Below are positions 4,255 to 25,746 of a stretch of DNA of 25,746 nucleotides, in pieces (the stretch's first letter is position 1; each line of letters begins with the position of its first letter). The notes under the pieces were generated by a model. That model made no database searches and was not told the origin of the DNA. It worked only from the letters and a program-made list of their open reading frames with translations. Made by a program: the position numbers and the translations under genes. Source of the stretch: a virus; the IMG/VR virus record IMGVR_UViG_3300010354_000570, positions 1-25,746 of that record; one strand, given 5' to 3'.

Positions 4255-4260
4255 GCCTAG

Positions 4261-5413: not shown

Positions 5414-5430
5414 ATTCCGATGGTAACAGA

Positions 5431-5458
5431 AAGGGGCCGGGCTTTCGCCCGACCCCTT
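5431..5458 (-). terminator. Rho-independent-type terminator after the capsid gene
   Basis: Read on the minus strand, AAGGGGTCGGGC, loop GAAA, then GCCCGGCCCCTT form a 12-bp stem with one G-U pair, followed by TCTG. It lies 24 bases after the capsid stop codon and would reduce transcription into the distal head genes. Confidence 0.8.
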
Positions 5459-5482
5459 CCCAGATCAATCGTCAGTTGACGA

Positions 5483-6721
5483 TTAGACCGTTACGCGAAC
5501 CTTCGCGTTGAACTGCGGAGCCTTGTTCGCGAGACCCGTCATCACATACATGATGTAGAGGCGCGAAAGGGCACCGTTGACCCCGACTGGGATCTCGAGG
5601 GTCGTGATGCTGTCCGCTCCAAGGAACGGCATGCTCCACGAATCCTCGTCCACGATGTACATATCGCGGTAGTTTGCGGTCGTTGGCGAGGTGACCGTGT
5701 ACGAACCAATGGAGTCGCCCGCAACCGCAAGGATTGGGAGCGCGCCAGCAGCCGTCACAACCGAGCCGAACGTCGCGCCTGCAGCCTGATCGGCCTGCGC
5801 AGGAGCGTTGTAGCGGACAAGGTTCGTCAGCTCGTTAACAAGACCAGCGTAGTCCGTCGGCGAGCAAAGGATCGCCGATGGGTTACCACCGTTGTCAAGC
5901 ACCGAGGCAACAGCGCTGTTGATCGTGGCGAGGTAGGCAGCAGTGCCCTTCGTCGCGATCACGCCCTGACCAGCGGCTGTCCCGAGAAGCTTGCGGAGAC
6001 CGTCAAACCCGTTCGCGTCATACGCGCCGAGCTCGGTGGTCGCGCCGGCACCCGAGGTAACCGTGGCGTTGCCCTGGAACAGGGTCTTCTGAAGCTTGTG
6101 GGCGATGGCGTCCACGCCACCGGCAAGCTCAGCCGAAAGGCCGTTGTAAGGCGAGCCGCCGCCCGAAAGGGCGAACTGCTGCTTCAACGTGATACCACGG
6201 CGGGTCGCCAGAACGGCGATGTTCGTGGTCTGTCGGCTATAGGTGTTGTTATCGTCCGTGACCGTGCCGGTCTCGGTCTGGAACACCGCGTCGCCGTAGG
6301 CGGTCTGCTGGTTGAACGCGTGCACGAGGCCGTTTGCAGGCTCCTTGCGGATGCGCTCCCAGAATGGGAACCGCTTTACGAACAGCGAGTAAAGGATTGG
6401 CTCAAGGTCCTGGCGGATAAGAGCCGCACCATTGCTGCTGTCAAGCAACTTGGTGATCTGTGGGTTGGCCGCTGCAAGGCGGTTAAGGACATCAGCCGAA
6501 GCCTGCTTCCCCGTCTCACGACCAGCCTGAATGTCAAGAGCCTCGCTGAGCTCAGCCTTGTTCATCTTTGAGAACTTCTTGCGAAGTTCGCGCTGAACAG
6601 CATAAGCCTCAGCGACGTCGAGATCGTCAGATCCGCCCGTGCGGCCGACGATTGCGGTGTCGTTCAGGGACTCAAGGCCCTTCTGAACGTCCTGCAGCTT
6701 CTCGCGAAGTGCGTCGCTCAT
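5483..6721 (-). CDS. Major capsid protein, HK97 fold
   Basis: A 412-residue protein. Residues 1-85 are helical and charged (LREKLQDVQKGLESLN, AVQRELRKKFSKMNKAELSE), like an HK97 delta/scaffold domain removed by the protease. The rest follows the HK97 capsid pattern: a conserved arm and E-loop start (SLFVKRFPFWERIRKEPANG, QTAYGDAVFQTETG), a long helix region (GGVDAIAHKLQKTLFQGN) and the A-domain SPTDYAGLVNELTNLVRYN, then EIPVGVNGALSRLYIMYVMTG near the end. AAGGAG lies nine bases before ATG 6721. It is directly downstream (5 bases) of the prohead protease gene and ends in a strong terminator, the usual arrangement for high capsid output. Confidence 0.9.
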   Translation of the reverse strand: MSDALREKLQDVQKGLESLNDTAIVGRTGGSDDLDVAEAYAVQRELRKKFSKMNKAELSEALDIQAGRETGKQASADVLNRLAAANPQITKLLDSSNGAALIRQDLEPILYSLFVKRFPFWERIRKEPANGLVHAFNQQTAYGDAVFQTETGTVTDDNNTYSRQTTNIAVLATRRGITLKQQFALSGGGSPYNGLSAELAGGVDAIAHKLQKTLFQGNATVTSGAGATTELGAYDANGFDGLRKLLGTAAGQGVIATKGTAAYLATINSAVASVLDNGGNPSAILCSPTDYAGLVNELTNLVRYNAPAQADQAAGATFGSVVTAAGALPILAVAGDSIGSYTVTSPTTANYRDMYIVDEDSWSMPFLGADSITTLEIPVGVNGALSRLYIMYVMTGLANKAPQFNAKVRVTV

Positions 6722-6726
6722 TTTAA

Positions 6727-8766
6727 TTACTCCTTAGCGTCAAGAAGACGCGCAATGAACGGATCAAGCCATGGGGCTTTTTCACCGTTCGTGGACTTTT
6801 CCGTGTTGATTGCTACCTGCTTACGACCCATTGGGACGTTGATCAGGCGACCAACGAGATCCAGAGCCTTAGCAAGTTCTCCCTCGACCTTGGCCTTCTC
6901 CGCAGACAGTTCGGTTACCACGGACTTAACCGCGACAACCTCCTGCTGCGCAGCGATGGCTGCATCGAGCGCCGACTTGGCGATGGCAGCGACTTCCTCC
7001 AGAGAAGTAGCGGCAGCATCTTCGGCAACCACATCCGCAGCAGCCTCTTCGGCGACAGCGGCAGGGGCTTCCTCAACGGCTTCAACAGCCGCTTCAGAAT
7101 CAGAAATTTGGGCCTCCTCAACGACAGCCTCGCCGTCCTTCTGGACGCCAAGACCTTCAAGGACCGCAGCGCGGTCCTCATCGGTGAGGTCGGCAAGAAT
7201 CCCGTTGATTCCAGCAAGGACCTGATCGCTCACACCACTCTTGTAGCGTGGGCTCTTGTCCCCGTCGGACTCTGGCGCCTTGGGCGCATCAGCGGGCTTA
7301 GGTGCAGGCGCTGGCTCAGGAGCCGGCGCTGGTGCAGGGGAAGGAGCTGGAGTTGGCTCAACAGCCTTCTCCACGATCTCCTCAACGTCATCGCCGCACT
7401 CGCAGCCACCCTCAGGGCAGTCGCATGGCTCGGCGGAAGCCTGAATCGCCTCAGGAGCGGCTTCCTCTTCCTTCTCCTCCGCAACAGCGGCAGGAGCGGC
7501 TACATCAGCAGGCTTATCGCCTTCGGTGCTGACAGTTACGGTCACGCGGGTCTTCTTCTCCGCGTCAACGACCTCATCCGCAGTGGCGGTCTCAACGACC
7601 TCCCCGGCGACGAGATCCTTCTCGGTCTCGGACATCTCTGTCTCCTCGTCTTCCTCCGCCTCTGCGGGCGGATTGCTTCGGGTGAGTGCGCTGAACTTTA
7701 CAGCCACATACACACCAGTTTCTTCCCAGTCTTCGCCGTGTGGGGCGTAGACACAAATGATTGCCACCGGATCTTCCGGTGTCGCGTCCAAACTCTCTTC
7801 AAGGTTTGGAAGCGAGACGCTACCACGAGTGACGATTTCGTCAATCTCACCGTAGCCAAGTTGCTCGCCGATCTGCCAATTGACGTAATCGCCAATCGTA
7901 AGCTCGTCAGGAGCAGCCTTGTGCGCGTCTTTTTCAACATCCTCCGCAGGCTTGAGTGCTTCAATCTTGCGGAGCGTAGAAAACTTGTGACCAACCAACT
8001 TGTCGGTCTCACCCCAGCCATTGCCCTGTGGGCGGTAAATGCGGATCAGGGCCGCTGGGTCTTCTGCAGTTGCATTGATCTTGAAGTCTGAATCAGGAAC
8101 GCCAAGGACACCTTCGCGCATCACATGCTCAATGCGGCCCTGGGCAGCGCCGCCGCTGGCATCCCATCGGACATAGTCACCCTCGGCAAGATCCTTGGGA
8201 CCAGCCTTCTCAGAAACCTCAATCTCGCCAGCCTGTTCAGCCTGCTTGAGGCTCTTTAGGGCGTTCTGCAGATAGGAGCGCTGATTGGCAGGGATGCCAA
8301 CCACAGATGTCTCAAGGAGGCGAACGCTCTCAATGACGTAGGTGTCTTCCCCGCCATTGCCCTTCTTCTTGGAAACCTTATCAACTCGAGCGCCAATGGA
8401 AAGACCGAGCTTGACCCCACGCTTGATTGCGCGGTAGGTCTTCATGGCAAGGGGGTTCTCGTCTTCGCCGACAACTCGGACGTCCACGTCAAGGTCATAG
8501 ACCTCGGCTCCGCTTTCGTCATCAAAGCGCTTGACAATCCGGGCATCGGTGACCGACCCGAAAATGTCGTCTGGAACATTGTAGTTATGGTTGAGGAAGA
8601 CGGTCATATTCTGCTTTGCCGTCTCTTCCATGGACTTCAGGGCGGAGAGGGTCATCTCATCCCCATGAAGGTCCCGAATTGTTGAGGAAGTCGTGCCCAC
8701 CACATGAAGGTCGCCGTTCTCGGCGGTATAAGCCTTCAGGGCATTCGTATAAAGTTTAAAGTCCAC
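6727..8766 (-). CDS. Prohead protease fused to tandem Tudor/SH3-like repeats and a scaffold-like tail
   Basis: A 679-residue protein from GTG 8766, with GGAGG upstream. Residues 1-170 match the HK97 S78 protease: VFLNHNYNVPDDIFG (H60), GVKLGLSIGARV (S123), and LLETSVVGIPANQRS (E152), the expected His-Ser-Glu triad. Two related repeats follow, about 188-270 (EGDYVRWDASGGAAQGRIEH...TAEDPAALIRIY) and 284-363 (IGDYVNWQIGEQLGYGEIDE...TPEDPVAIICVY), resembling Tudor/SH3-like GD-V-W domains. Residues 365-580 are low-complexity Glu/Ala/Pro with a Cys cluster CDCPEGGCECG (448-458) and a Pro-Ala run (471-499). Residues 585-645 form a probable coiled coil. Function: capsid maturation; the acidic tail probably acts as scaffold and may be self-cleaved. 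It is much longer than a stand-alone protease (about 200 residues). Confidence 0.85.
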   Translation of the reverse strand: MDFKLYTNALKAYTAENGDLHVVGTTSSTIRDLHGDEMTLSALKSMEETAKQNMTVFLNHNYNVPDDIFGSVTDARIVKRFDDESGAEVYDLDVDVRVVGEDENPLAMKTYRAIKRGVKLGLSIGARVDKVSKKKGNGGEDTYVIESVRLLETSVVGIPANQRSYLQNALKSLKQAEQAGEIEVSEKAGPKDLAEGDYVRWDASGGAAQGRIEHVMREGVLGVPDSDFKINATAEDPAALIRIYRPQGNGWGETDKLVGHKFSTLRKIEALKPAEDVEKDAHKAAPDELTIGDYVNWQIGEQLGYGEIDEIVTRGSVSLPNLEESLDATPEDPVAIICVYAPHGEDWEETGVYVAVKFSALTRSNPPAEAEEDEETEMSETEKDLVAGEVVETATADEVVDAEKKTRVTVTVSTEGDKPADVAAPAAVAEEKEEEAAPEAIQASAEPCDCPEGGCECGDDVEEIVEKAVEPTPAPSPAPAPAPEPAPAPKPADAPKAPESDGDKSPRYKSGVSDQVLAGINGILADLTDEDRAAVLEGLGVQKDGEAVVEEAQISDSEAAVEAVEEAPAAVAEEAAADVVAEDAAATSLEEVAAIAKSALDAAIAAQQEVVAVKSVVTELSAEKAKVEGELAKALDLVGRLINVPMGRKQVAINTEKSTNGEKAPWLDPFIARLLDAKE

Positions 8767-8796
8767 GGAGCCTCCGTTGCTACTATGACTTTACCA

Positions 8797-8825
8797 ATGA
8801 TTTACCGAAGGTTTATCTGCGTCAA
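8797..8825 (-). promoter_or_regulatory. Candidate promoter of the protease-capsid operon
   Basis: Minus-strand TTGACG (8825-8820) and AATCAT (8802-8797) are 17 bases apart. The start would be near 8790, giving a leader with GGAGG before GTG 8766. TTTACC on the plus strand occurs repeatedly here (about 8790, 8801 and 8857), possibly operator half-sites. Confidence 0.5.
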
Positions 8826-8964
8826 GAGGTGATGTTTCTACCACCTTTAGACCCATTTACCGACCCTTTTCGGGATAATACACCAGATTGTAACATATTA
8901 GGCACGCTTGTGCGATCTGCGGATAAGATTTCTTAACTGAATCTAAGCACAACCTTAATCTGCG

Positions 8965-8973
8965 TGTTATACT
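8965..8973 (+). promoter_or_regulatory. Extended -10 promoter TGT-TATACT, leaderless
   Basis: TATACT at 8968-8973 is preceded by TGT. The base seven positions after the hexamer is the A of ATG 8980, and there is no ribosome-binding site in between, so the downstream gene is predicted to be leaderless. Confidence 0.55.
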
Positions 8974-8979
8974 AGCCTC

Positions 8980-9459
8980 ATGCTTCCATGCACCTTGTGC
9001 AACGAGATCAACTACTCCGGGGATCAGATCAAGGATCTGGCCCGGGCGCTGATCCGACTCCAGCGCCAAATCCAGCCGGTTATTGAGTCCTACGAAAAGG
9101 GGCGTCGCTGCCACCCCCGCTGCGCCTCTTGCGGCATCCTGGCTGGGGCCGAGCACCTTGTGACCGAGCTTGTACCGGAGCCAATGATCCCTAGGGCTAG
9201 GGGGCAGAAGCGCTATAACGTCTGCCAGTGGTGCTATGCCGACCTGCACAAGAGCCGACAGAGCGTTCCCCAGCGCAGGAAGATCCAACTTCGGGTAGAC
9301 GAGATGCTGAAAGGGGAGGACGAAGAGACAGCAGACACAGATATTGACAGCATTATGCGCGCCATTCACAATGAGCTTGCATCCTTTGGGGCATCCCAGA
9401 TTCATAGCCACGAAGAGATTGACCCCGAAGAGGGGGACGATGCCGACCCCGAGCGTTGA
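8980..9459 (+). CDS. Hypothetical zinc-finger protein
   Basis: A 159-residue protein with three Cys clusters: PCTLC at the N-terminus, CHPRCASC around residue 45, and CQWCYADLH around 83, enough for one or two zinc sites. The middle is helical and basic; the last 40 residues are very acidic (EEIDPEEGDDADPE). I do not recognise a family; a treble-clef or HNH-like fold lacking catalytic residues is possible. It begins the plus-strand block that contains the portal and diverges from the protease-capsid operon. The predicted transcription start coincides with the ATG, so translation would be leaderless. It overlaps the next gene by 20 bases. Confidence 0.6.
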   Translation: MLPCTLCNEINYSGDQIKDLARALIRLQRQIQPVIESYEKGRRCHPRCASCGILAGAEHLVTELVPEPMIPRARGQKRYNVCQWCYADLHKSRQSVPQRRKIQLRVDEMLKGEDEETADTDIDSIMRAIHNELASFGASQIHSHEEIDPEEGDDADPER

Positions 9460-9664
9460 GTCAACGCTTGAGGTACAGTTCACAGATGGGGTCTTTGTGG
9501 TCCCAGTCTGGTGGGCTCGATCACTTAACAAGCGCACGACAACCTATGTCAATGGGATTCGCGTAGTGAACTGCTCCCTTGACGAAATGCGTAAATATGT
9601 GAATACTGACGCTGTAGAGGCCCACTGGGCAGACGCGATCAGAAAGCAGAGAAGCGGAAGGTAA
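9440..9664 (+). CDS. Small hypothetical protein upstream of portal
   Basis: A 74-residue protein from ATG 9440, chosen because GAAGAGGGGG precedes it and because it is coupled to the end of the zinc-finger gene. The frame is open further upstream, but that part only mirrors the overlapping gene. The sequence (VESTLEVQFTDGVFVVPVWW, TTTYVNGIRVVNCSLDEMRK) suggests a small beta-sheet followed by a helix. Not recognised. Its stop is two bases before the portal ATG, so it is probably co-transcribed with the portal. Confidence 0.55.
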   Translation: MPTPSVESTLEVQFTDGVFVVPVWWARSLNKRTTTYVNGIRVVNCSLDEMRKYVNTDAVEAHWADAIRKQRSGR

Positions 9665-9666
9665 CA

Positions 9667-11859
9667 ATGGCTGAGCAACGCTCACTACTTCAGCGACTTT
9701 TCGGCGGCGGGGCTGAGACCACCGTGGAAAAGGCGACCCCATCCCTAGTTCCAGATGCTGGACCATACGCCCGTGGTGCCTATGGTCTAAACACTATTAC
9801 CAAAATGAGCACGGAGCAATTGCGCCGGTGGTCACGAAACAACCCATGGATTCGCGCCGCAGTCAACCTTCGCCGACAGCAGATTAGCCGAGCAAAGTGG
9901 GACATCGTCAGCACGGACGCCGGAGACAGCGCCGATCCACGAACCGTCCAGAAACTTCGCGAACTTTTCCGCCGACCAAACCCAAAGGGCGACTCATGGC
10001 GCTCATTTATTGAGCCAGTCATTGAAGACATCCTTGTCCTAGACCAGGGCGCTATTGAAGTTGAGAAGAAGGTTGGATCGCGCGTTGGCGCAGACCCAAT
10101 CGCATATCTCTGGAGCAAGGACGCTGCGCGAATTGCTTTTGATACGACATGGGACGGACGCGATGAAAGCAAGCCGCGATACTACGAGCTTGATGGCGCC
10201 GGAAAGCAGGTAGCCGTCTACAAGAACGACGAGTTGATTGTCGTTATCGCAAACCCAGTTACTTATAGCCCAATTGGTCTTTCGCCGCTTGAAGTACTTG
10301 CCGAGACCATCGCCGCCGACCTTGATGCTGCGGCTTACAACGCTAAGGCAGTTTCACAGGCTGCGCCTCCGGGCGTTCTTCACCTTGGCGAGGGCGTGCG
10401 CCCAGACCAAGTTGACTCCTTCAAGGCTTACTGGGAAGCAGAGGTGGCCGGCAAGAGCCAGATTGCGATTACTGGTGGCGGCAAGGGCATGCAGTGGCTT
10501 CCGCTCGCGGCCTCCAACCGAGACATGCAGTTTATGGAGTGGCAGGTCTATCTTGCCCGAAAGATCTGTGCCGTGTTTGCCGTGCAGCCACAAGACATCG
10601 GTATTGGATTTGATATTAACAAGAGCACTGCCGAAACCAATGCCGCTTTCACTTACGACAACGGCATTGTGCCGCTGGCCGAGTTGATTGCCGAGTATCT
10701 GACGCGAGAGGTGGTTGCTCGTTACGATGCCGACCTTCGCTTTGTCTTTACCGAGATTGGTCGCACCGCGCAGCAGACCATTGCTGAATACAACAAGATG
10801 GCGCTCGGAGGTCTGCCATGGCTCCGCATCAATGACGCGCTCCGAGAGCGTGGCCAAGACGGCATCGGCGAGATTGGCGACCAGATCCTCTTCCAGACCC
10901 CAAAGGGCTATGTTCCGTCGGATCGCTATGGTGAATACCTTGACAAGGTTGTGTTCGGGACCGCTGCTGTCAACGAGCCGCCAACACCAGATGGGTCTGA
11001 GCCAGGGGGAATCCCCAATGGCGAAGACATGGAGCCAGATCCGGGCTCAAACAACACGCCCAATCAGAATCCGTCCGAGCCGGATGCGCAGTTGAAGTTG
11101 ACCATTGAGATTGACGAGACAAAGGCTGCTGGCGACTCCATCATCGTTTCCGACATTGATGGCACCCTGACCACATCTGATGGCAGCGACAAGGTTAACG
11201 AGACTGTTGCGGACTACCTGCGCCAGAAGTCTGAGACGCACCGCATCTTCATCATTAGCGCTCGATCAGTGAAGCGCCTAGAGGAGACGCGCGCATGGCT
11301 TGAGGAAAACGATATTCCTCACGATGCCGTGCACCTCAGCGACTTCCCTGCCGGAGCTGGGCTGCAGTTCAAGAAATACAAGATGTCCAAGATTCTCAAG
11401 GAAAGCGGTCGCGTTGTTGAGGCAATTGAAAACGATGCCGATGTCCGAGATGCCTATCGTGCTCTTGGCGTTTCAAAGGTTCATGGACCAGCAGAAGTTG
11501 CTGATAAGCATGCCGCAGCAGACTATTCTGGGATTAGCCTAAATGTTCCAGCGGCTGTCAAGGCAGAGGCAAAGCGTGGTCTTGACTGGCGTCAAGAGTT
11601 TGGTCGTGGCGGCATCGGACCAGGTCAAACGACGGCTCGTATGCTTATTAGCAATACAATGACAATCCCGCGTGTTCGCAAGATGCGAGCCTTCTTGGCT
11701 CGCCACGAAGTTGACAAGCAGGGTGAGGGCTTCAAGCCAGGTCAGCCAGGCTTCCCGTCTGCTGGTACAATTGCGTGGGCGCTCTGGGGCGGAGACCCTG
11801 GGGTTGCATGGTCAAACAAGGTGATGCGCCAAGTTGAGGCTCGCGAGCGGAAGCGCTAA
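9667..11859 (+). CDS. Portal protein fused to a HAD-type phosphatase and a C-terminal domain
   Basis: A 730-residue protein with GGAAGG five bases upstream of ATG 9667. Residues about 35-430 are a phage portal protein: MSTEQLRRWSRNNPWIRAAV, PIGLSPLEVLAETIAADLDA, AQAAPPG-like SQAAPPGVLHLGEG, and VQPQDIGIGFDINKSTAETN. Residues 435-470 are a Pro/Asn/Gly linker. Residues 485-615 carry HAD motifs: VSDIDGTLT (D496, D498), FIISARS (S531), a Lys-rich FKKYKMSK (566-573) and ENDADVRDAY (D590, D595). Residues 620-730 form a third domain with FGRGGIGPGQTTARML, FLARHEVDK and AGTIAWALWGGDPG, a module I associate with other phage head proteins. Portal subunits form the dodecameric DNA channel. Twelve copies of a phosphatase on the vertex would be unusual; possibly the tail is cleaved off by the protease. 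Confidence 0.85.
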   Translation: MAEQRSLLQRLFGGGAETTVEKATPSLVPDAGPYARGAYGLNTITKMSTEQLRRWSRNNPWIRAAVNLRRQQISRAKWDIVSTDAGDSADPRTVQKLRELFRRPNPKGDSWRSFIEPVIEDILVLDQGAIEVEKKVGSRVGADPIAYLWSKDAARIAFDTTWDGRDESKPRYYELDGAGKQVAVYKNDELIVVIANPVTYSPIGLSPLEVLAETIAADLDAAAYNAKAVSQAAPPGVLHLGEGVRPDQVDSFKAYWEAEVAGKSQIAITGGGKGMQWLPLAASNRDMQFMEWQVYLARKICAVFAVQPQDIGIGFDINKSTAETNAAFTYDNGIVPLAELIAEYLTREVVARYDADLRFVFTEIGRTAQQTIAEYNKMALGGLPWLRINDALRERGQDGIGEIGDQILFQTPKGYVPSDRYGEYLDKVVFGTAAVNEPPTPDGSEPGGIPNGEDMEPDPGSNNTPNQNPSEPDAQLKLTIEIDETKAAGDSIIVSDIDGTLTTSDGSDKVNETVADYLRQKSETHRIFIISARSVKRLEETRAWLEENDIPHDAVHLSDFPAGAGLQFKKYKMSKILKESGRVVEAIENDADVRDAYRALGVSKVHGPAEVADKHAAADYSGISLNVPAAVKAEAKRGLDWRQEFGRGGIGPGQTTARMLISNTMTIPRVRKMRAFLARHEVDKQGEGFKPGQPGFPSAGTIAWALWGGDPGVAWSNKVMRQVEARERKR

Positions 11860-12841: not shown

Positions 12842-13069
12842 ATGGCAAATTGCGTGAACTGTGGAAAGCCAGTTACGTCGCCTGACGCTGCTCGGTGCTG
12901 GTGGTGCAATCATGCCCACCGATCCTCCTCCGCTCTCGTTTCGCTTGAGGTCCGAGCGAAAGAGATTAGGGATCTGAAGGATGCTGGAATGACGATGGTG
13001 GACATTGCAAGGAAACTTGGGGTGAGCCGGCAGCGTGTGTACCAGATTCTCGGAAAGGTGAAAAAGTGA
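12842..13069 (+). CDS. Zinc-ribbon plus helix-turn-helix regulator
   Basis: A 75-residue protein with GGAGGGG seven bases before ATG 12842. Residues 4-22 hold CVNCGK...CWWC, a four-Cys zinc ribbon. Residues 37-75 (EVRAKEIRDLKDAG, MTMVDIARKLGVSRQRVYQI) are a sigma-region-4/resolvase-type helix-turn-helix. It is the first gene of the operon and lies just after a promoter with a palindrome on the -35, so autoregulation is a natural inference. Stop and next start overlap (GTGA). Confidence 0.75.
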   Translation: MANCVNCGKPVTSPDAARCWWCNHAHRSSSALVSLEVRAKEIRDLKDAGMTMVDIARKLGVSRQRVYQILGKVKK

Positions 13070-15407: not shown

Positions 15408-16062
15408 TACATCGGCTCGCGAAGACAAGATTTTGACAAAAGCAGGCGTTCCGCCGCGCTATTTGCCTCATACTTTCGCAAATTTCACTCACCACGAGAA
15501 AAATAAGACTGCATTTGAGATCGCTTCGGAGTGGGCAGCGCTCAAAGACCCAAAAGATCGTGGATTTATCCTCCTTGGTCAGCCCGGCGTGGGCAAAACT
15601 CACCTTGCGGTCGCTGCACTGCGTGAAGTTGCGCGACTTTGGAGCCTTGAGAGGGAGGAGGAGGCAGGTGAAGACGTCTATCGCGACCCAAAGACGATGA
15701 TTGAGCAGAATATGCTCTTCATCAATGTCCCAATCTTCATGGATCAACTGCGGCAGGGCATCAAATTCACAGAAAGCAAGGCAAATGATGTGTGGGACTT
15801 TGCTATTAATCGAGCGTCGGTGGTCGTTTTGGACGATTTCGGCAAGGAGAAGATCACTGATTGGGTCACCGAGCGACTCTATGTCCTCATTGAGAGCCGA
15901 TATCAGAACTTGAAGTCCACAATCGTCACATCCAACCGTACCCTAGACGAGCTTGATGGGTTAGGATATGGTGCAGCGGTGAGCCGGCTGCAGGAAACTG
16001 GACGCGGAGTCATGATTGATATGAGGGACTTTCGCCCAGAGTTAGGTAGGAAGGGCCGATGA
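15388..16062 (+). CDS. DnaC/IstB-like AAA+ helicase loader
   Basis: A 224-residue protein from ATG 15388, with AAGGAG ten bases upstream. Walker A GQPGVGKTH (64-72), Walker B VVVLDDFGKE (145-154), sensor-1 IVTSNRTLDE (179-188) and an arginine-finger-like AVSRLQE (197-203) define a DnaC/IstB AAA+ ATPase. It would load the replicative helicase; the helicase itself is not in the window, so a host helicase or a phage one elsewhere is the partner. It overlaps the preceding gene by 20 bases and the methyltransferase by 4 (ATGA). Confidence 0.85.
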   Translation: MSTLSPDTSAREDKILTKAGVPPRYLPHTFANFTHHEKNKTAFEIASEWAALKDPKDRGFILLGQPGVGKTHLAVAALREVARLWSLEREEEAGEDVYRDPKTMIEQNMLFINVPIFMDQLRQGIKFTESKANDVWDFAINRASVVVLDDFGKEKITDWVTERLYVLIESRYQNLKSTIVTSNRTLDELDGLGYGAAVSRLQETGRGVMIDMRDFRPELGRKGR

Positions 16063-17540
16063 ATAGGGTATTAACACATGCATCATTCTTTAGCGGTGTA
16101 GGGGGGGTAGATCTTGGGTTTGAACGAGCCGGAATCCGAACAGTCAGCGTCAGCGAGATTGACCCATTCGCCCGATCAGTCCTTGCCAGCCGATTCCCAG
16201 ATGTCCCCCAGCTTGGAGACATCGTGGCGCTTGCAGATCGTGAGCTTTCCAAGTCTGTACAGCAATCAGCCGACGAAGTTCAACGATGTAGCCGACCCGT
16301 TGACGGTATCGGCTGGACCCCCAGCAGTGATGATTGGAAGGCAGCAGATATTTGGAGCGCAGGATTCCCCTGCCAAGACCTCTCAGTCGCTGGAAAGCGG
16401 AAAGGATTTACCGATGGAAAACGATCAGTCCTCGCCTTCACCTTCCTTGACCTTGTGGAACGATTCCGCCCTCGGTGGCTCGTGTTGGAAAACGTCCCAG
16501 GTCTCTTCACTTCCAACGACGGAAGGGACCTCCTCGCCCTCCTCCGTGAAGTGGACCAACTCGGGTATGGTATTTCGTGGAGAACTCTTGACGCGCGCTT
16601 CTTCGGAGTCCCCCAAAGGCGCCGTCGAGTATTCCTTGTCGCGAGTCTTGGAAGCGACCGCGCCGGAGAGGTTCTTCTTGAGTGCGAAGGCGGCTGTGGG
16701 CATTCTCAGGCGAGCGAATCGTCGTGGCAGGCAACTGCCGGAGGCTCTGAACAGCGCCCTCTCGTCGCTGGCGCTCTCCTCGCCAGATACCATAAAGGAG
16801 CTACCAGTACCGTTGAAAACGGACAACTCGTCGTCACCACAGCCCTCACCAGAGGGGGACTCGGTGGAGGCTTCGGACCAGACGACAACGACGCCCAGGG
16901 AAACAAACTTGTCGTCGGTTCGGAGGCTTACGCCAGTGGAGTGCGAGCGCCTGATGGGTTGGCCGGACGGGTGGACGATTCCAACTTCCGATCAATGGGC
17001 GCCGCGATCCCGAGCCAAGAAGACGTCCAAGTAGATCACTACACCTACAGCGTCCGAGAGGACGCAAAGGCGGAGAACTTCTCGGCGACACCGATTGATA
17101 CGGCTCGCGCACTCAATGCAGTCTGGCCAAGCGTGCAAAGCCACCATGCGCAGACATTCATTGCGTCCGTGTACCGTAAGAGCAAGCGCGCACAAAGTAA
17201 CCAAGATGATGAGACATGGGTAGATGATGGCGTCGCCAATACACTCAATGTCTTTGATTCTGGAGATACGCGAACAACGCATGCAGTCGTTGGTTCCCAC
17301 TATGATGGATATAACCAGAAGTTTGAGCAAGATGGACCACACCGAACGCTTCGTATCGGGCGCGATTCATCAGACTTTGTTGTCCCCCCAGCAGGAGTGC
17401 CGGCAGAGAGCCCGCTCTTGCCGCTGGGCATGGATTCAAATCGGTACAAGGTCTGCGGAAACGGCGTTGTTGCAAATGTGGCAGAATGGATTGGACACCG
17501 ACTAGTACATGTTGATAAGAAGTGGACGGAGATGCGATGA
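16059..17540 (+). CDS. dcm: C5 cytosine DNA methyltransferase with split or duplicated C-terminal motifs
   Basis: A 493-residue protein. Motif I FFSGVGGVDLGFERAG (10-25), motif IV GFPCQDLSVAGKRKGF (102-117; nucleophile C105), motif VI LVLENVPG (141-148), motif VIII PQRRRRVFLVAS (185-196) and motif X NRYKVCGNGVVANVAEWIGH (461-480) are all present. The reaction is SAM-dependent methylation at carbon 5 of cytosine in a specific DNA sequence; the large segment 205-455 would recognise the target. Motif IX, normally RLTPxECxRLxGFPDGW before motif X, is absent from this frame: it is read in the +1 frame at 16918-16980. A motif-X-like SNFRSMGAAIPS (308-319) follows at once in this frame. A past frameshift and insertion, or frame switching, is suggested. 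SAM synthetase follows with a 4-base overlap. Confidence 0.85.
   Translation: MNRVLTHASFFSGVGGVDLGFERAGIRTVSVSEIDPFARSVLASRFPDVPQLGDIVALADRELSKSVQQSADEVQRCSRPVDGIGWTPSSDDWKAADIWSAGFPCQDLSVAGKRKGFTDGKRSVLAFTFLDLVERFRPRWLVLENVPGLFTSNDGRDLLALLREVDQLGYGISWRTLDARFFGVPQRRRRVFLVASLGSDRAGEVLLECEGGCGHSQASESSWQATAGGSEQRPLVAGALLARYHKGATSTVENGQLVVTTALTRGGLGGGFGPDDNDAQGNKLVVGSEAYASGVRAPDGLAGRVDDSNFRSMGAAIPSQEDVQVDHYTYSVREDAKAENFSATPIDTARALNAVWPSVQSHHAQTFIASVYRKSKRAQSNQDDETWVDDGVANTLNVFDSGDTRTTHAVVGSHYDGYNQKFEQDGPHRTLRIGRDSSDFVVPPAGVPAESPLLPLGMDSNRYKVCGNGVVANVAEWIGHRLVHVDKKWTEMR
16114..17034 (+). CDS. Overprinted +1 frame inside the methyltransferase gene, possibly expressed
   Basis: This frame is open for 306 codons inside the methyltransferase gene. 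From codon 84 (16363) it reads DSPAKTSQSLESGKDLP, then WTNSGMVFRGE, SSESPKGAVEYSLSRVLE and ERFFLSAKAAVGILRRANRR, phrases I associate with small phage proteins annotated beside cytosine methyltransferases. It ends with VRRLTPVECERLMGWPDGWT, the canonical motif IX of C5 methyltransferases, then stops at 17034. A TTG at 16114 follows a G-rich tract. It may be a second overlapping protein, the product of a frameshift, or an old frame of the same gene. Expression is not shown by the sequence. Confidence 0.35.
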   Translation: MGLNEPESEQSASARLTHSPDQSLPADSQMSPSLETSWRLQIVSFPSLYSNQPTKFNDVADPLTVSAGPPAVMIGRQQIFGAQDSPAKTSQSLESGKDLPMENDQSSPSPSLTLWNDSALGGSCWKTSQVSSLPTTEGTSSPSSVKWTNSGMVFRGELLTRASSESPKGAVEYSLSRVLEATAPERFFLSAKAAVGILRRANRRGRQLPEALNSALSSLALSSPDTIKELPVPLKTDNSSSPQPSPEGDSVEASDQTTTTPRETNLSSVRRLTPVECERLMGWPDGWTIPTSDQWAPRSRAKKTSK

Positions 17541-18613
17541 AAAGGACTGCTGAATCGGTTACCGAAGGACACCCAGACAAGATCTGCGACCAGATCTCTG
17601 ACGCGATTCTTGACGAGTATCTAGCACAAGACCCACTCTCTCGAGTCGCGGTTGAGTGCGCGATTAATGGCGACAGCCTATGGATCTTTGGCGAGGTGAC
17701 GAGCGAGGGCACAGTTGACCATCGCCGCATTGCGCGCAATGTCCTCCATGACATCGGCTATGACTCTGCATCCTGGCTCAACCCAGAACTCCTTCGTATT
17801 GATGTGAGCGTTGGTAAGCAGTCACCAGACATCGCCCGTGGCGTGGTTGGCGGCGAGGAGATCGGAGCCGGTGACCAAGGGATCGTTTACGGCTACGCAG
17901 CACTAGAAACCAGCGACTACATGCCCCTGCCGATCCATGCCGCGCACAAGCTGGCTAGGAGCCTCGCTAGGGCACGAAAAAGCGGTGAAGCGCCCTTCCT
18001 GCGCCCTGACGGCAAAACGCAGGTCTCCGTGGCGGAAAACGGGCTTGTAGAGGCTGTCGTGGTGTCCACACAGCACCATGAGAATGTAGAGCCTGACCTT
18101 CTGAAGGACTTCATCCGTAGCCTTGTCCAGCGCGACCTTGGCGAGATCCTCTTGCCTGGGGCGACGATTCACATTAATCCGACTGGTCGGTTTGTCATTG
18201 GCGGACCAGCTTCAGACTCTGGGTTGACTGGCCGCAAGATTATCGTGGATACATACGGCGGCGATGCGCATCATGGTGGCGGTGCATTTAGCGGAAAGGA
18301 TGCCACGAAGGTTGACCGCTCTGCCGCATATGCAGCACGGCACGCAGCCAAGTCGCTGGTCGCCAACAACTACGCCAGCAAGGCTGAAGTTGCAATTGCT
18401 TATGTCATCGGTCAGGCGGAGCCAGTGCAAATCTCTGTCCGTACCTTCGGCACAGGCAACGACCGCATGGCAGAAAACTTTGTCAAAGGCGGTTGGGATT
18501 TCCGACCAGCAGCGATTATTGAGCGATACAAACTGCGTCGTCCGATCTTCCGAGAAACATCCGTGTACGGACACTTCGGCGGAAATAGCCGCGAGTGGGA
18601 GAAGGTGCTCTGA
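17537..18613 (+). CDS. metK: S-adenosylmethionine synthetase
   Basis: A 358-residue protein from ATG 17537 (ATGA overlap, GGAGATG upstream). It makes S-adenosylmethionine from methionine and ATP. Signatures: TEGHPDKICDQISDAILDEY (9-28), GAGDQGIVYGYA (110-121), INPTGRFVIGGPASDSGLTG (213-232), and GGGAFSGKDATKVDRSAAYA (247-266), which hold the ATP, Mg and triphosphate-binding residues. It is slightly shorter than the usual 380-400 residues, ending soon after ETSVYGHFGG. Directly downstream of the DNA methyltransferase, it could raise SAM supply during infection, also for the methyltransferase at 22522. Confidence 0.95.
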   Translation: MKRTAESVTEGHPDKICDQISDAILDEYLAQDPLSRVAVECAINGDSLWIFGEVTSEGTVDHRRIARNVLHDIGYDSASWLNPELLRIDVSVGKQSPDIARGVVGGEEIGAGDQGIVYGYAALETSDYMPLPIHAAHKLARSLARARKSGEAPFLRPDGKTQVSVAENGLVEAVVVSTQHHENVEPDLLKDFIRSLVQRDLGEILLPGATIHINPTGRFVIGGPASDSGLTGRKIIVDTYGGDAHHGGGAFSGKDATKVDRSAAYAARHAAKSLVANNYASKAEVAIAYVIGQAEPVQISVRTFGTGNDRMAENFVKGGWDFRPAAIIERYKLRRPIFRETSVYGHFGGNSREWEKVL

Positions 18614-23103: not shown

Positions 23104-23262
23104 CACTTATCTAGGGGCACGCGCGAAAAAAAATTCAGCGCCCGGGGGAGAGAACCGGTCTGGCCTTGACAGTCAGATGGGGGGTTGGTGAAAAATCGGC
23201 ATGGGTGTCCCGCAAAGCCGGGGCGGGGGGTGGCCGGTGGGGCGCGGGGGGTTGAGCGCAAC
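23104..23262. other. Non-coding strand-switch region with G-rich tract
   Basis: This stretch separates the plus-strand operon from the minus-strand cassette array. It holds an A-tract (eight A near 23127-23134) and a strongly G-rich run at about 23219-23251 with four runs of at least four G, able in principle to form a G-quadruplex. No gene is seen. TTGACA at 23166 has no matching -10. Confidence 0.5.
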
Positions 23263-23292
23263 AAAAAGGGGCGACGCTTTCGCGCCGCCCCT
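23263..23292 (-). terminator. Rho-independent terminator of cassette gene 1
   Basis: On the minus strand AGGGGCGGCGC, loop GAAA, GCGTCGCCCCT (11-bp stem with one G-U pair) is followed by TTTTG. It lies 25 bases after the stop of the 148-residue gene. Confidence 0.9.
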
Positions 23293-23317
23293 CTTCGCCG
23301 CTTTCGCGGCGCGTTGC

Positions 23318-23764
23318 TTACGCTTCGCGCTGGTAAAGCGTTTCGCCGCCCGTTGCGATGCTTACGATGCGCGCCGTTGAGAAAGCGCGATGCCCATGTC
23401 GCGGCGCCATGCCGTAGCATGCGCTACCCTCTCGCGACGACGACGGGCATGCGGTAGGCATGCCGTACTCTTCGGGCGCCGAAAGCAAAAGCGCGACGCT
23501 TTCGTTTCCGCTCTTCGCGACGACGACGCCGCGCTTCGCATCGTAGCGCCCCGATGTCGTAACGATGGCGCCGCCATCGGCGGCGACGCCAAGCGTCTTG
23601 ACGCGTGCGATGCCGCGCCCATCGGCGACGGCGCGCTTCGCGGCGCTCTCAATGCGCTTCGCGATTACGGCATCGGATACGGGCGCCGTTTCCGATACGA
23701 CGACGACGATGCGCCCCTTTGCCGCTTCCATCGCGGCGACGATGCGCTTTGTTGCTTCCGTCAT
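23318..23764 (-). CDS. Cassette gene 1: hypothetical protein
   Basis: A 148-residue protein from ATG 23764, chosen because GAGTGAAAGGGG precedes it and the promoter start falls 58 bases upstream; the longer frame would begin upstream of the transcript. Residues 1-105 look like an alpha/beta protein: KRIVAAMEAAKGRIVVVVSE, DAVIAKRIESAAKRAVADGR, GIARVKTLGVAADGGAIVTT, then YDAKRGVVVAKSGNESVALL. The last 40 residues are odd in composition (Cys, Ser, Arg, Met) and encoded by DNA rich in GCATGC and CGACGA, so a frameshift near the 3' end is possible. Because of the GC bias other frames are open too; promoter, leader and terminator decide the strand. Not recognised. Confidence 0.6.
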   Translation of the reverse strand: MTEATKRIVAAMEAAKGRIVVVVSETAPVSDAVIAKRIESAAKRAVADGRGIARVKTLGVAADGGAIVTTSGRYDAKRGVVVAKSGNESVALLLSAPEEYGMPTACPSSSREGSACYGMAPRHGHRAFSTARIVSIATGGETLYQREA

Positions 23765-23828
23765 GTTGCTTTCCCCTTTCACTCTCGCGGTACCCGTTGC
23801 GCTCTTGCGCCCCTTCGCCGCTAGGCAT

Positions 23829-23857
23829 AGTGTAAAGCATGCCGCCAGAAAGCGCAA
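23829..23857 (-). promoter_or_regulatory. Promoter of cassette gene 1
   Basis: Minus strand: -35 TTGCGC (23857-23852), 17-base spacer TTTCTGGCGGCATGCTT, -10 TACACT (23834-23829). Seven bases on is an A at 23822 starting AGCGGCG. Confidence 0.7.
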
Positions 23858-23882
23858 TAGGGGCGACGCGCCAGACGCAACG

Positions 23883-23974
23883 GATTGTTACAATGGCCGA
23901 TTGTTACAAAGCTGCGGATTGTTACAATGGCACGAATCGTGCCACGAGCTGGCGATTGTTACAACGTAACAATC
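23883..23974. repeat. GATTGTTAC iteron cluster I
   Basis: Five exact copies of GATTGTTAC: direct at 23883, 23899, 23917 and 23954, and inverted at 23966. The last two form GATTGTTAC-AAC-GTAACAATC. Two copies are followed by AATGG and one by AAAGCTGC. The cluster lies upstream of cassette gene 1 and downstream of gene 2. Confidence 0.85.
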
Positions 23975-23992
23975 CAGGGCGGCCAATGTAAC

Positions 23993-24023
23993 AAAAAAGG
24001 GGGGCGGCTCTCGCCGCCCCCCT
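23993..24023 (-). terminator. Rho-independent terminator of cassette gene 2
   Basis: On the minus strand AGGGGGGCGGC, loop GAGA, GCCGCCCCCCT is a perfect 11-bp stem followed by six T counting the last stem base. Confidence 0.9.
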
Positions 24024-24036
24024 CTTCGCTAGGCTC

Positions 24037-24219
24037 TTACCATGCGAGGCGCTTCTTCGCCGCCTCAATCCTAGCGATGAGTCCTTCACGCTCTCGCGCT
24101 TCCTCTTGGCGCGCTTTCTCCTCTCGCTGGTACTGCTCCGCTTCCCGCTCTGCCCGCTCCGCCTCTTGGCGTAGGTCTGCCGTCGTCATGGTGTCGTACC
24201 AGCCGTTCATGCTTGCCAT
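24037..24219 (-). CDS. Cassette gene 2: small coiled-coil protein
   Basis: A 60-residue protein from ATG 24219 with AAGGAG eight bases upstream. After MASMNGWYDTMTT, residues 14-58 are one long, highly charged helix (LRQEAERAEREAEQYQREEK and on), a probable coiled coil that may dimerise. The start codon sits inside GTAACAATGG, which matches one side of the iteron sequence. Not recognised; likely an early small protein acting through binding. Confidence 0.7.
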   Translation of the reverse strand: MASMNGWYDTMTTADLRQEAERAEREAEQYQREEKARQEEAREREGLIARIEAAKKRLAW

Positions 24220-24268
24220 TGTTACACTCCTTCACTCTTGGCGGCGGATTGTCCGCCGCTCTTCCTTG

Positions 24269-24297
24269 ATTGTGCCAGAAAGCGCGAGAATCCGCAA
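24269..24297 (-). promoter_or_regulatory. Promoter and leader hairpin of cassette gene 2
   Basis: Minus strand: -35 TTGCGG (24297-24292), spacer ATTCTCGCGCTTTCTGG, -10 CACAAT (24274-24269). The predicted start A at 24262 begins AGAGCGG. The leader then folds into GCGGCGGA-CAA-TCCGCCGC (24259-24241) before AGAGTGAAGGAG. Confidence 0.7.
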
Positions 24298-24315
24298 CCC
24301 CACGAATCGGCCATT

Positions 24316-24362
24316 GTAACAATCGAGATTGTTACGTTCCAGCTCGCGCTCTGGATTGTTAC
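24316..24362. repeat. GATTGTTAC iteron cluster II
   Basis: An inverted copy at 24316-24324 and direct copies at 24327-24335 and 24354-24362. The first two form a 20-base palindrome-like dyad with a GA spacer. The third runs into GGCC and then directly into the TAACC array. Confidence 0.85.
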
Positions 24363-24366
24363 GGCC

Positions 24367-24436
24367 ATAACCATAACCTATAACCCTAACCCTAACCTAT
24401 AACTATAACCCTAACCGATAACCCTAACCCCTAACC
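24367..24436. repeat. Telomere-like TAACC array A
   Basis: Eleven units of 6-8 bases ending in TAAC (CATAAC, CTATAAC, CCTAAC, CCCTAAC and variants) in 70 bases. On the minus strand this reads TTAGGG/TTATAGG-like and contains at least five GGG runs. No coding frame explains it. Confidence 0.9.
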
Positions 24437-24444
24437 GCTAGGGC

Positions 24445-24468
24445 GGGGGCGGCGTTGCCGCCGCCCCC
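24445..24468 (-). terminator. GC-rich stem after cassette gene 3
   Basis: Minus strand GGGGGCGGCG, loop GCAA, CGCCGCCCCC is a perfect 10-bp stem six bases after the stop. There is no T-tract; the GGTTAGGGG array follows instead, so termination is likely but not certain. Confidence 0.6.
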
Positions 24469-24474
24469 TAACCC

Positions 24475-24666
24475 CTACCGCTTCAATAGGGCGGCGATGT
24501 CGTCCGCCATTGTCGCGCCCCATAGGGGGGCGGGGGCGAAGAATGCCAGAATCGCCTCGTCTGGGAAGCGTACCGCGTGGATTGCCGCCTCTTCGCGGCG
24601 GTCATACTCGCGCTCCGCCGCCTCTTCCCAACCCGTCCCCATGTCGTCCAACTCGTTGTAGTCCAT
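24475..24666 (-). CDS. Cassette gene 3: small acidic hypothetical protein
   Basis: A 63-residue protein from ATG 24666, preceded by GAGTGAAAGGGG; the longer frame would start upstream of the transcript. It is acidic and helical: MDYNELDDMGTGWEEAAERE, then YDRREEAAIHAVRFPDEAIL, a hydrophobic AFFAPAPLW and a final DDIAALLKR helix. Not recognised. Small acidic proteins from such arrays may inhibit host factors, but nothing in the sequence proves it. Confidence 0.65.
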   Translation of the reverse strand: MDYNELDDMGTGWEEAAEREYDRREEAAIHAVRFPDEAILAFFAPAPLWGATMADDIAALLKR

Positions 24667-24715
24667 TGTCCTACCCCTTTCACTCTGGGGGCGGATTGTC
24701 CGCCCCTCTGGTACT

Positions 24716-24744
24716 ATTAGAACACGCCAGAGCGCCAGAGTCAA
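24716..24744 (-). promoter_or_regulatory. Promoter and leader hairpin of cassette gene 3
   Basis: Minus strand: -35 TTGACT (24744-24739), spacer CTGGCGCTCTGGCGTGT, -10 TCTAAT (24721-24716), start A at 24709 beginning AGAGGGG. The leader folds into GGGGCGGA-CAA-TCCGCCCC (24706-24688), sharing the core GCGGACAATCCGC with gene 2. Confidence 0.8.
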
Positions 24745-24755
24745 TACCCCCCGCC

Positions 24756-24787
24756 GATTGTTACAAAAGCTGCTGCCGGATTGTTAC
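24756..24787. repeat. GATTGTTAC iteron pair III
   Basis: Direct copies at 24756 and 24779, separated by AAAAGCTGC-containing sequence similar to that between copies 2 and 3 of cluster I. The second copy again ends in GGCC. Confidence 0.85.
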
Positions 24788-24815
24788 GGCCACACCCGCG
24801 CTATCCGCTAGGGCG

Positions 24816-24841
24816 TAACCCATAACCTATAACCCCTAACC
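24816..24841. repeat. Telomere-like TAACC array B
   Basis: Four units (TAACC, CATAACC, TATAACC, CCTAACC), then CGCTAGGGGG and the stem of cassette gene 4. Confidence 0.8.
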
Positions 24842-24845
24842 GCTA

Positions 24846-24871
24846 GGGGGCGGGGTATAACCCCCGCCCCC
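24846..24871 (-). terminator. GC-rich stem after cassette gene 4
   Basis: Minus strand GGGGGCGGGG, loop GTTATA, CCCCGCCCCC, a perfect 10-bp stem seven bases after the stop. No T-tract; TAGCGGTTAGGGG follows. Confidence 0.6.
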
Positions 24872-24878
24872 GCTCACG

Positions 24879-25076
24879 CTACGGGAGACTCTGGTAGCAG
24901 TCTCGGCATGTCGCCCAGAGCGCCCCCGTCTCTGGATTCTTGATGGCGGTGTAAGAGCGGCGCTCACACTCTTCGCCATCATCATAGAGCGCGCTCTCTT
25001 CGTGGCAGAGCGCCTCACAATGAAGCGCGCCGTCTCTGGCGTCCTGCCAGAATTGCTTCTCCTGCTCTCGTGTCAT
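24879..25076 (-). CDS. Cassette gene 4: small Cys-containing protein
   Basis: A 65-residue protein from ATG 25076, preceded by GAGTGAAGGGAG. An N-terminal helix (TREQEKQFWQDARDGA) is followed by HCEALCHEE, EECERRSYTAI and TCRDCYQSLP. The spaced Cys pairs (C-x3-C and C-x2-C, plus one) suggest a zinc site. Not recognised. It is transcribed alone. Confidence 0.7.
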   Translation of the reverse strand: MTREQEKQFWQDARDGALHCEALCHEESALYDDGEECERRSYTAIKNPETGALWATCRDCYQSLP

Positions 25077-25122
25077 CGTTGCTCTCCCTTCACTCATGAG
25101 GGGTGTCTCCCCCTCTGCCTAT

Positions 25123-25151
25123 ACAATGCCAGACAATCGCTCTGGTGTCAA
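25123..25151 (-). promoter_or_regulatory. Promoter and leader hairpin of cassette gene 4
   Basis: Minus strand: -35 TTGACA (25151-25146), spacer CCAGAGCGATTGTCTGG, whose ends CCAGA/TCTGG are inverted, -10 CATTGT (25128-25123), start A at 25116 beginning AGAGGGG. The leader holds a GAGGGG/CCCCTC hairpin (25115-25098). Confidence 0.75.
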
Positions 25152-25164
25152 TAGAGCGCCACCG

Positions 25165-25196
25165 GATTGTTACGTCGAGCGCGCAGCTTTTGTTAC
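25165..25196. repeat. GATTGTTAC iteron pair IV
   Basis: An exact copy at 25165-25173 and a partial copy TTTGTTAC (25189-25196) followed by GGCC. AGCTTT between them is the reverse complement of the AAAGCT seen in other pairs. Confidence 0.75.
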
Positions 25197-25211
25197 GGCC
25201 TAGCGGCGGCG

Positions 25212-25256
25212 TAGGGGTTAGGGCGTAACCCCTAACCCCTAACCGATAACCCCTAA
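25212..25256. repeat. Telomere-like array C forming a hairpin
   Basis: TAGGGGTTAGGG (25212-25223) and CCCTAACCCCTA (25230-25241) are a perfect 12-bp inverted repeat, followed by TAACCGATAACCCCTAAG that reaches the stop of gene 5. It stands where the terminator of gene 5 would be. Confidence 0.8.
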
Positions 25257-25441
25257 GCGTCTAGCGTTGCCCCGCAAGCGAAGCACGGCGGGGTGTCATC
25301 ATTGACATCGGGGCTATAGATGGCGCCCATGTCATAGGAATCGTTGTTGCGGTCAGCGCACGGCACGCAGAGAACGATTCCTGCGCGGTCATCCACATAG
25401 CCAACCAGAACGATTCCAGAACCCGTTTTCGTCATTCCCAT
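25253..25441 (-). CDS. Cassette gene 5: small zinc-ribbon protein
   Basis: A 62-residue protein from ATG 25441, preceded by GAGTGATAGGAGAGAG. The longer open frame lies partly upstream of the predicted transcript and is not used. GIVLVGYVDDRAGIVLCVPC, then DMGAIYSPDVNDDTPPCFAC form a compact zinc ribbon with two C-x2-C pairs. Acidic overall. Not recognised. It has the longest leader of the array (about 115 bases). Confidence 0.7.
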   Translation of the reverse strand: MGMTKTGSGIVLVGYVDDRAGIVLCVPCADRNNDSYDMGAIYSPDVNDDTPPCFACGATLDA

Positions 25442-25562
25442 CGTCTCTCTCCTATCACTCTCGCCCACACTAGGGCTATTGAGAGGGGCGGGATTTGGAA
25501 CACCGACAACGGCTACCGCATGCGGTAGGTGGCGTGTGGCCTCCCTCAACCCCTCTGCAAGC

Positions 25563-25591
25563 AGTATTGCACACACCAGCGCTGGTGTCAA
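25563..25591 (-). promoter_or_regulatory. Promoter of cassette gene 5 with 16-bp palindromic operator
   Basis: Minus strand: -35 TTGACA (25591-25586), spacer CCAGCGCTGGTGTGTGC, -10 AATACT (25568-25563), start A at 25556 beginning AGAGGGG. ACACCAGCGCTGGTGT (25573-25588) is a perfect palindrome overlapping the -35 and spacer. In the leader, CTACCGCATGCGGTAG (25513-25528) is another perfect 16-bp palindrome. Confidence 0.85.
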
Positions 25592-25746
25592 GCGCCGAGC
25601 TGCGAGCGTTGCGCCTGGTGCAACAACGCCGGCGCCCGGTCGAGTAGTGGCCGGCCCCATAATCCCGGGAGCTATAACCAGGGGCCTAACCGGGCGAGCT
25701 ATAACCGGGGCCCGCAGTCGAGGCCTGGTGGAGCTGCTCGATGCGC
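25592..25746. repeat. Right end: GC-rich region with GAGCTATAACC direct repeats
   Basis: No gene is seen from 25442 to the window end: the first part is the promoter and leader of cassette gene 5. The rest is GC-rich, with two copies of GAGCTATAACC (25669-25679 and 25696-25706) each followed by GGGGCC nearby, and a CCTAACC unit between them. The TAACC theme therefore continues to the end of the window. Confidence 0.6.

Follow-up and report, generated by a model that had tools for sequence, protein, structure and literature searches.

The window, the whole 25,746-nt stretch of viral DNA analysed, probably carries one end, cut short, of a modular array in which small accessory phage genes sit in autonomous expression units and are predicted to be transcribed separately. 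Each unit comprises a sigma-70-type promoter (TTGAC or TTGC, a 17-bp spacer and often TGn before the -10) and a +1 A, followed in most units by a hairpin, then by GAGTG/Shine-Dalgarno and a single small ORF, with a GC-rich stem at the 3' side.

The five promoters of the array, all on the minus strand, are located at 25563..25591 (TTGACA-17-AATACT), 25123..25151 (TTGACA-17-CATTGT, with TGG 5' of the -10), 24716..24744 (TTGACT-17-TCTAAT), 24269..24297 (TTGCGG-17-CACAAT) and 23829..23857 (TTGCGC-17-TACACT). These -35/-10 pairs and 17-bp spacers had been reported in a first-pass annotation, and re-reading of the sequence agreed at all five. As also claimed there, the promoters align base for base, ungapped and in phase, and an A lies 7 bases past each -10, correctly placing the predicted +1 positions at 25556, 25116, 24709, 24262 and 23822, respectively. 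The window was then scored with a matrix of 40 columns, for which 38 promoters from relatives, and none from the window, served as the training set. Using this relatives-only matrix, the five promoters took the top five scores of the whole 25.7-kb window (27.3, 25.7, 24.6, 19.6 and 18.0 bits), followed by a next-best site at 11.8 bits; the only sites above 17 were those of the array. The maximum over 100 shuffled windows was 17.4 bits, barely below the fifth window promoter (18.0), and the -35s of promoters 4 (TTGCGG) and 5 (TTGCGC) are weak.

Downstream of each promoter, also on the minus strand, the units follow a common layout. Unit 1 has a long, structured leader (25442..25556) and a gene for a 62-aa CxxC/CxxC protein (25253..25441) of family F1, with homologues in the related phages G006, G015 and G012; its 3' stem (25205..25252) is built from TTAGGGGTTA-type repeats. 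The promoter and leader of unit 1 share 85% identity over 142 bp with the stretch 5' of a different gene in G002. The gene of unit 2 (24879..25076, 65 aa) most likely starts at 25076, 3' of a leader (25077..25116) that runs from the 5' hairpin GAGGGG/CCCCTC through GAGTG to a Shine-Dalgarno sequence; its 3' stem (24846..24871) has no U-tract. In unit 3, a leader (24667..24709) with the 5' hairpin GGGGCGGA/TCCGCCCC, AGAGTG and a Shine-Dalgarno sequence precedes a gene (24475..24666) for an acidic 63-aa protein of family F2, which has several copies within the G006 array, and a 3' stem (24445..24468). The leader of unit 4 (24220..24262) is organized in the same way around the 5' hairpin GCGGCGGA/TCCGCCGC, with AGAGTG and a Shine-Dalgarno sequence; its 60-aa product (24037..24219) belongs to family F10, the final unit of the G006 array, and the gene is followed by an intrinsic terminator (23992..24024, stem and T6). 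Unit 5 carries AGAGTG and a Shine-Dalgarno sequence in its leader (23765..23822), with a possible larger GCGG...CCGC hairpin that a simple stem test missed, a 148-aa gene (23318..23764) of family F4, whose homologues in G012, G013 and G028 lie under other promoter elements, and an intrinsic terminator (23262..23293, stem and T5).

None of the five proteins matched a Pfam or PHROG family. The unit-5 protein gave no match in the phage collection, and as a single sequence none in viral contigs, where an alignment did give matches; the only matches for its structure model (pLDDT 67) were two unnamed phage proteins. The model of the unit-1 protein was too poor in quality for use. An Rfam search of the array and leaders returned only tRNA at gathering scores, and weak sRNA matches in the window were judged to be chance.

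The earlier claim that each gene has its own promoter and 3' stem is upheld, as a sequence prediction, by the promoter model and the stem calculation. Every one of the five genes has a GC-rich stem after it (z = -2.4, -1.8, -3.5, -5.4 and -5.5), and over 70 units the mean z is -2.55, with z < -2 in 45. Only two of the five window stems, those of units 4 and 5, are followed by a U-tract, so read-through is possible at the other three. A hairpin of at least 5 bp stands at the transcript start in 56 of the 70 units, vs 10.9 ± 3.1 in dinucleotide shuffles. This element, missed by the first-pass annotation, covaries among units: its arms occur in 48 distinct versions with pairing kept despite the sequence differences, and arms swapped between units pair in just 6.2% of cases.

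Related uncultivated phages carry arrays of 6-24 units. The expected conservation of the promoter design was found, with clusters of matches in G002/G026, G006 and G015 and nearly none elsewhere; at the corresponding place in G010, a methyltransferase-anchored relative, there was no array. The description of the genes as singly transcribed would fit the window, with one gene per unit, and is not universal, as some units in relatives hold two. Families in the relatives' arrays include RadC/JAB, DUF7249, DUF1281_C and DUF3846, by which the array genes look accessory; a role in host takeover or anti-defence may be envisaged, these families being the only hints.

The repeats that separate units are genome-specific. 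In the window, four exact copies of GATTGTTACAA cluster between units 4 and 5 (23883..23964) and more lie at 24314-24324 and 24756-24766, giving six copies at ≤1 mismatch vs 0.25 expected; a GGTTATAGG/TTAGGGGTTA-type block spans 24360..24440, with others at 24809-24845, 25205-25255 and 25660-25713. Since the contig ends inside repeats, 155 bp upstream of promoter 1, the window array is probably incomplete. Gain and loss of whole units, anticipated earlier, was seen on comparison across relatives: G028 and G012 differ by one two-gene unit, present or absent at the same place with breakpoints in GTTATG repeats, and G002 and G006 have conserved unit order with single-unit differences. The intergenic repeats are thus breakpoints of unit gain and loss, which the earlier reading had missed. 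Two other sequences, GGGTATGGGG (G009) and TTAGTTAGTTA (G014), were rejected as promoter elements because the genes lie on the opposite strand and both sequences are intergenic repeats.

A further feature absent from that reading is a genome-specific exchange of the -35 zone. The element here, spanning ~-37 to -24, hardly varies among the units of one genome but bears no relation to that of another genome, and occurs once per unit in the relatives' arrays. TTGAC occupies this zone in the window, G002, G006, G009 and G015, and close relatives carry CATAGTAGGTTT, CGGTGGATT, CGGTGGGATCG, TCATAGGCAGCG or CCTAAATGAATC; the non-TTGAC relatives lack TTGACA and keep the extended -10 (TGG-CATTGT). Across 11 collinear orthologous units of two phages, the element is 31% identical, near chance, against 90% for the -10, leader and gene start, and the core proteins of this pair are mostly 92-100% identical. 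Nearly all units of an array thus appear to have switched promoter element at once, and the same gene families are found under different elements.

What reads the -35 zone is plausibly a trans-acting factor, perhaps a small sigma-region-4-like protein. The candidate in the window (12842..13069, plus strand) is a 75-aa protein with a zinc ribbon and a sigma-region-4-like HTH, its role being a putative one; such proteins occur in most array-bearing relatives. One possible explanation, put forward tentatively, is that the element is the site of a phage activator or sigma-region-4-like specificity factor, in lineage-matched pairs, with the array switching as one regulon and the TTGAC version of the window being the state readable by the host. 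This scheme resembles the sigma appropriation of T4 middle promoters. It is consistent with the near-invariance of the element within genomes and its divergence between them, and with the retention of the extended -10 in swapped arrays without TTGACA. A search for a complete phage sigma factor with regions 2 and 4 in 12 records (possibly incomplete) found no region 2 and only the short region-4-like protein, and the latter is 60-65% identical between element types B and C and 89% within C, whereas most core genes show 92-100%. However, all zinc/HTH proteins share one recognition helix, SRQRVYQ, and equal discordance was observed in the adjoining HNH gene and two genes of the virion-gene region. 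Moreover, G030 combines a B-type protein with one C-like unit, the prediction that the G031 protein would be C-like failed, and no homologue was detected in G014 (type D).

Alternatively, though we consider it unlikely, the element could be an operator for a phage repressor governing immunity or timing, and diversification of immunity specificity would then make whole arrays switch together, a situation likened to Cluster A stoperators and Cluster K ESAS. The many identical sites, one per unit and overlapping the promoter, would suit an operator, and there are precedents in the repeated upstream element of Cluster K, known to change by subcluster (PMC3203893), and in the repressor and stoperator sequences of Cluster A, which differ among phages (PMC6550527). 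The element here, however, takes the place of the -35 rather than flanking it. Recent copying among units, which would make the promoters and hairpins duplication relics without function, could account for the paralogy of several units (families F0, F2 and F3) and for leaders before unrelated genes, but is very improbable given 48 hairpin-arm versions still paired far above shuffles and an element kept within genomes while flanking sequence diverged. Equally hard to credit is that the array forms a standard polycistronic early operon, transcribed from a distal promoter past weak or chance internal ones: three window stems lack U-tracts, but the promoter model ranks the five sites first to fifth in 25.7 kb and relatives hold one element per unit.

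In the modular-array reading, host RNA polymerase would transcribe the units one by one, probably early in infection. The 5' hairpin and 3' stem may shield both ends of each short message and insulate each gene from its neighbours, and therefore any unit could be moved without disturbing the others; recombination in the repeats would insert, remove, duplicate or move units. In close relatives the -35 element is swapped in concert across the array and the extended -10 retained, a phage-specific factor plausibly standing in for -35 recognition. We cautiously propose an early regulon whose access code can be exchanged, in which the -35-zone sequence is shared array-wide and may be rewritten between lineages with near-identical core genes, in step with a small specificity factor replacing host-sigma -35 recognition.

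As for the host, portal homology to a single contig from an Anaerolinea MAG (54% over 411 aa) points to an Anaerolinea-like bacterium; no array-like motif was seen on that contig, making this only a weak guess.

Phage morons are autonomous genes, gained and lost mostly as single insertions, that each bring along a promoter and a terminator. Each window unit likewise has its own predicted promoter, as a moron-type autonomous unit does, but up to about two dozen units here share one design. Typical integron cassettes, in contrast, have no promoters of their own. The Cluster K SAS is a 13-bp translation-start sequence, and its ESAS repeats do not support RNA pairing; the likeness lies in a repeated element at the starts of many small non-structural genes, and in an inverted-repeat consensus that shifts by subcluster, as the -35-zone element does by genome (PMC3203893). 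The suggestion that the elements here differ from SAS is supported, as GGGATAGGAGCCC before starts gave 9 matches at ≤3 mismatches where 7.4 were expected, and the array contained none of them. The array also resembles the stoperators of Cluster A (PMC6550527) and the 17-bp palindromes of Cluster O, the latter also with recombination between repeats (PMC4351075), in having many site copies per genome, but neither of those sites has a set position in the -35 zone of a one-gene unit.

The portal protein is distantly SPO1-like (~26% over half its length). The SPO1 host-takeover module has 26 mostly small, clustered early genes whose promoters and ribosome binding sites are of high-expression type, a layout similar to the array, but the module genes are partly in operons, and the available part of its description mentions neither modular repeats nor genome-specific -35 elements (PMC6873191). 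SIRV2 and other archaeal viruses have regulons of early anti-defence genes, 3-12 per virus; these use BRE/TATA promoters, and the portion of the account at hand describes no transcript-start hairpin or wholesale element swap between near-identical viruses (PMC11065993). With its bacterial-type promoters, the array is an analogue of such regulons and not a member, and early timing and anti-defence function are for it predicted at most.

The array brings dozens of small phage genes, most of them nameless, into a natural set that shares a single recognisable control element, and candidates for host takeover and counter-defence may therefore be picked by promoter instead of homology. The concerted -35-zone swap in near-identical phages offers a clean natural experiment in regulon-wide change of promoter specificity and the factor driving it.

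The window record is an incomplete virus of 25,746 bp, and its final 2.5 kb carries five minus-strand genes, described in the first-pass annotation as singly transcribed cassettes with one shared promoter design. Direct reading of the strand bore out each -35/-10 pair, its 17-bp spacer and the A seven bases beyond the -10. When 38 promoters of three relatives, none of them from the window, were used to train a position matrix, the five sites came out first to fifth in the window (27.3 to 18.0 bits), followed by a next site at 11.8 bits; the highest score among 100 shuffled windows was 17.4 bits. The weakest of the five is on its own only just above chance, and its position and phase agree with the other four. 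A generic sigma-70 scan of the window detected promoter 1 only. The five-promoter array is confirmed.

Searching with the portal protein revealed numerous uncultivated relatives but none that was both close and cultured; queries with array DNA, cassette proteins or a leader pattern led on to longer arrays. The related records G002 and G026, which look like two contigs of one phage, gave 13 and 15 promoter hits. Further longer arrays were found in G006 (24), G015 (8), G028 (16), G013 (13), G029 (7), G012 (6), G031 (at least 8) and G014 (7), and about nine TTGAC units were counted by eye in G009. The promoter design is kept in relatives, and outside the arrays the TTGAC type is virtually absent from these records. 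Elsewhere in the window (2448-11859), the minus strand carries the capsid gene and several others of virion type, and the plus strand carries the portal gene, which holds an internal HAD/kinase-like region. Judged from translations only, a DNA methyltransferase-like gene adjoins an S-adenosylmethionine synthetase-like gene (16059-18613).

The initial description of the units missed a hairpin at the transcript 5' end. In window units 2, 3 and 4, a 6-8 bp stem begins 2-4 bases past the predicted start, and after it come GAGTG, a Shine-Dalgarno sequence and then the start codon; the leaders of units 1 and 5 are longer and fall outside the scoring of the simple stem test. Stems of at least 5 bp beginning within 7 bases of the start were present in 56 of 70 units from six genomes, with 10.9 ± 3.1 expected from dinucleotide shuffles. 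These units contain 48 versions of the arms, and when arms were swapped among 40 distinct arm pairs, only 6.2% of combinations paired, which is the informative figure because own arms pair by construction. The pairing is conserved and the sequence is not. In other systems, a stem close to the 5' end guards messages against 5'-end-dependent decay, and by analogy the hairpin may do so here. At the 3' end, most units have a fold in the 70 nt past the stop that is more stable than those of shuffled sequences (mean z -2.55; z below -2 for 45/70); in the window, a U-tract follows only units 4 and 5, and the stems of units 1-3 may be terminators, stabilisers or both. Operator-like TTGTTAC-N3-GTAACAA palindromes and half-sites also occur between units (window 23883-23964; 3487-3503 and 4391-4407 of the related stretch L105).

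Analysis of over-represented words per record revealed a single upstream element per genome: CTCCATAGTAGGTTT upstream of 13/13 units found in G013, TTCGGTGGATT in G012, G028 and G029, TTAGCGGTGGGATCG or close variants in G031, TCATAGGCAGCG or variants in the DNA stretch L061, and CCTAAATGAATC in G014. These elements replace TTGACA at about -37 to -24, with a TGG-CATTGT-like extended -10 downstream. Core proteins of G012, G013 and G028 are mostly 92-100% identical. G013 and G028 share eleven units that are orthologous and collinear; in these, the 16-nt element is 31% identical, near chance, whereas the -10/leader/gene start is 90% identical; across non-orthologous units within one genome, element identity is 97% (G013) and 82% (G028). 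Each leader thus goes with its gene, and each element with its genome. This rule is not absolute, since G030, whose core genes match those of G013 at 99-100% identity, carries one unit with a type B element and one C-like unit; import of units is apparently possible. Concerted element change has a smaller-scale precedent, since the repeated start-linked SAS/ESAS element of Cluster K mycobacteriophages differs in consensus by subcluster (PMC3203893). The Cluster K SAS is absent here, which supports the earlier remark that the elements differ. In a limited search of open-licence literature, no system turned up that joins covarying 5' hairpins to a wholesale exchange of the -35-zone element between near-identical phages.

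Sigma region 2 was not encoded in the 12 records searched. A candidate reader of the -35-zone element is a short protein (window 12842-13069) that combines a zinc ribbon with a sigma-region-4-like HTH and is present in most records. It is 60-65% identical between B-type and C-type phages, a divergence far above that of most core genes (92-100%); however, the neighbouring HNH gene and two virion-region genes are equally divergent, and its recognition helix is invariant. The main alternative to reading by this zinc-ribbon/HTH protein is that the element is an operator for a repressor.

Gain or loss of whole cassettes, proposed initially, was found between G028 and G012, which differ by one transcription unit (promoter, two genes and stem) with breakpoints in GTTATG-type repeats. 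Unit order is common to G002 and G006 with single-unit differences, some gene families are duplicated inside one array, and leaders are also found ahead of unrelated genes, the window's long unit-1 leader standing before a different gene in G002. The structured leader GAGGTAAGACCACC...GGTGGCACC (L105:30-100 and L105:5878-5946; L107:4409-4473 in G006; L110:2835-2904 in G015) is common to unrelated genes, RadC-like ones included, and looks like a movable cis-regulatory RNA. Promoters at about 9533 and 10092 of L107 have no convincing gene behind them and may mark units whose gene has been lost. G006 (L107:4031-4268), G015 (L110:900-1120) and G009 (L113:4545-4790) share a conserved unit that has an array-type promoter and no obvious protein gene; it is predicted to specify a non-coding RNA, about 220-240 nt long and closed by a terminator. 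Ten pairs are changed on both sides among the three sequences, and no Rfam match was obtained where searched. A second structured-looking stretch without a gene lies inside the G015 array (L110:3347-3640).

Among known systems, the SPO1 host-takeover module is a functional analogue of the array (PMC6873191). The closest concept is the early anti-defence gene set of archaeal viruses, mostly single genes with their own promoters and a shared regulatory sequence (PMC11065993). The five window array proteins matched no Pfam or PHROG family. Relatives' arrays encode RadC/JAB, DUF7249, DUF1281_C and DUF3846 proteins, of the sort seen among the accessory genes of mobile elements. The first-pass interpretation of the array is partly supported: the promoter and 3' stem of each gene, the conservation of the design in relatives and the gain and loss of whole units bear it out. 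A regulon of early host-takeover or defence-related genes is a candidate reading; the gene families of relatives would fit an accessory, possibly counter-defence, role.
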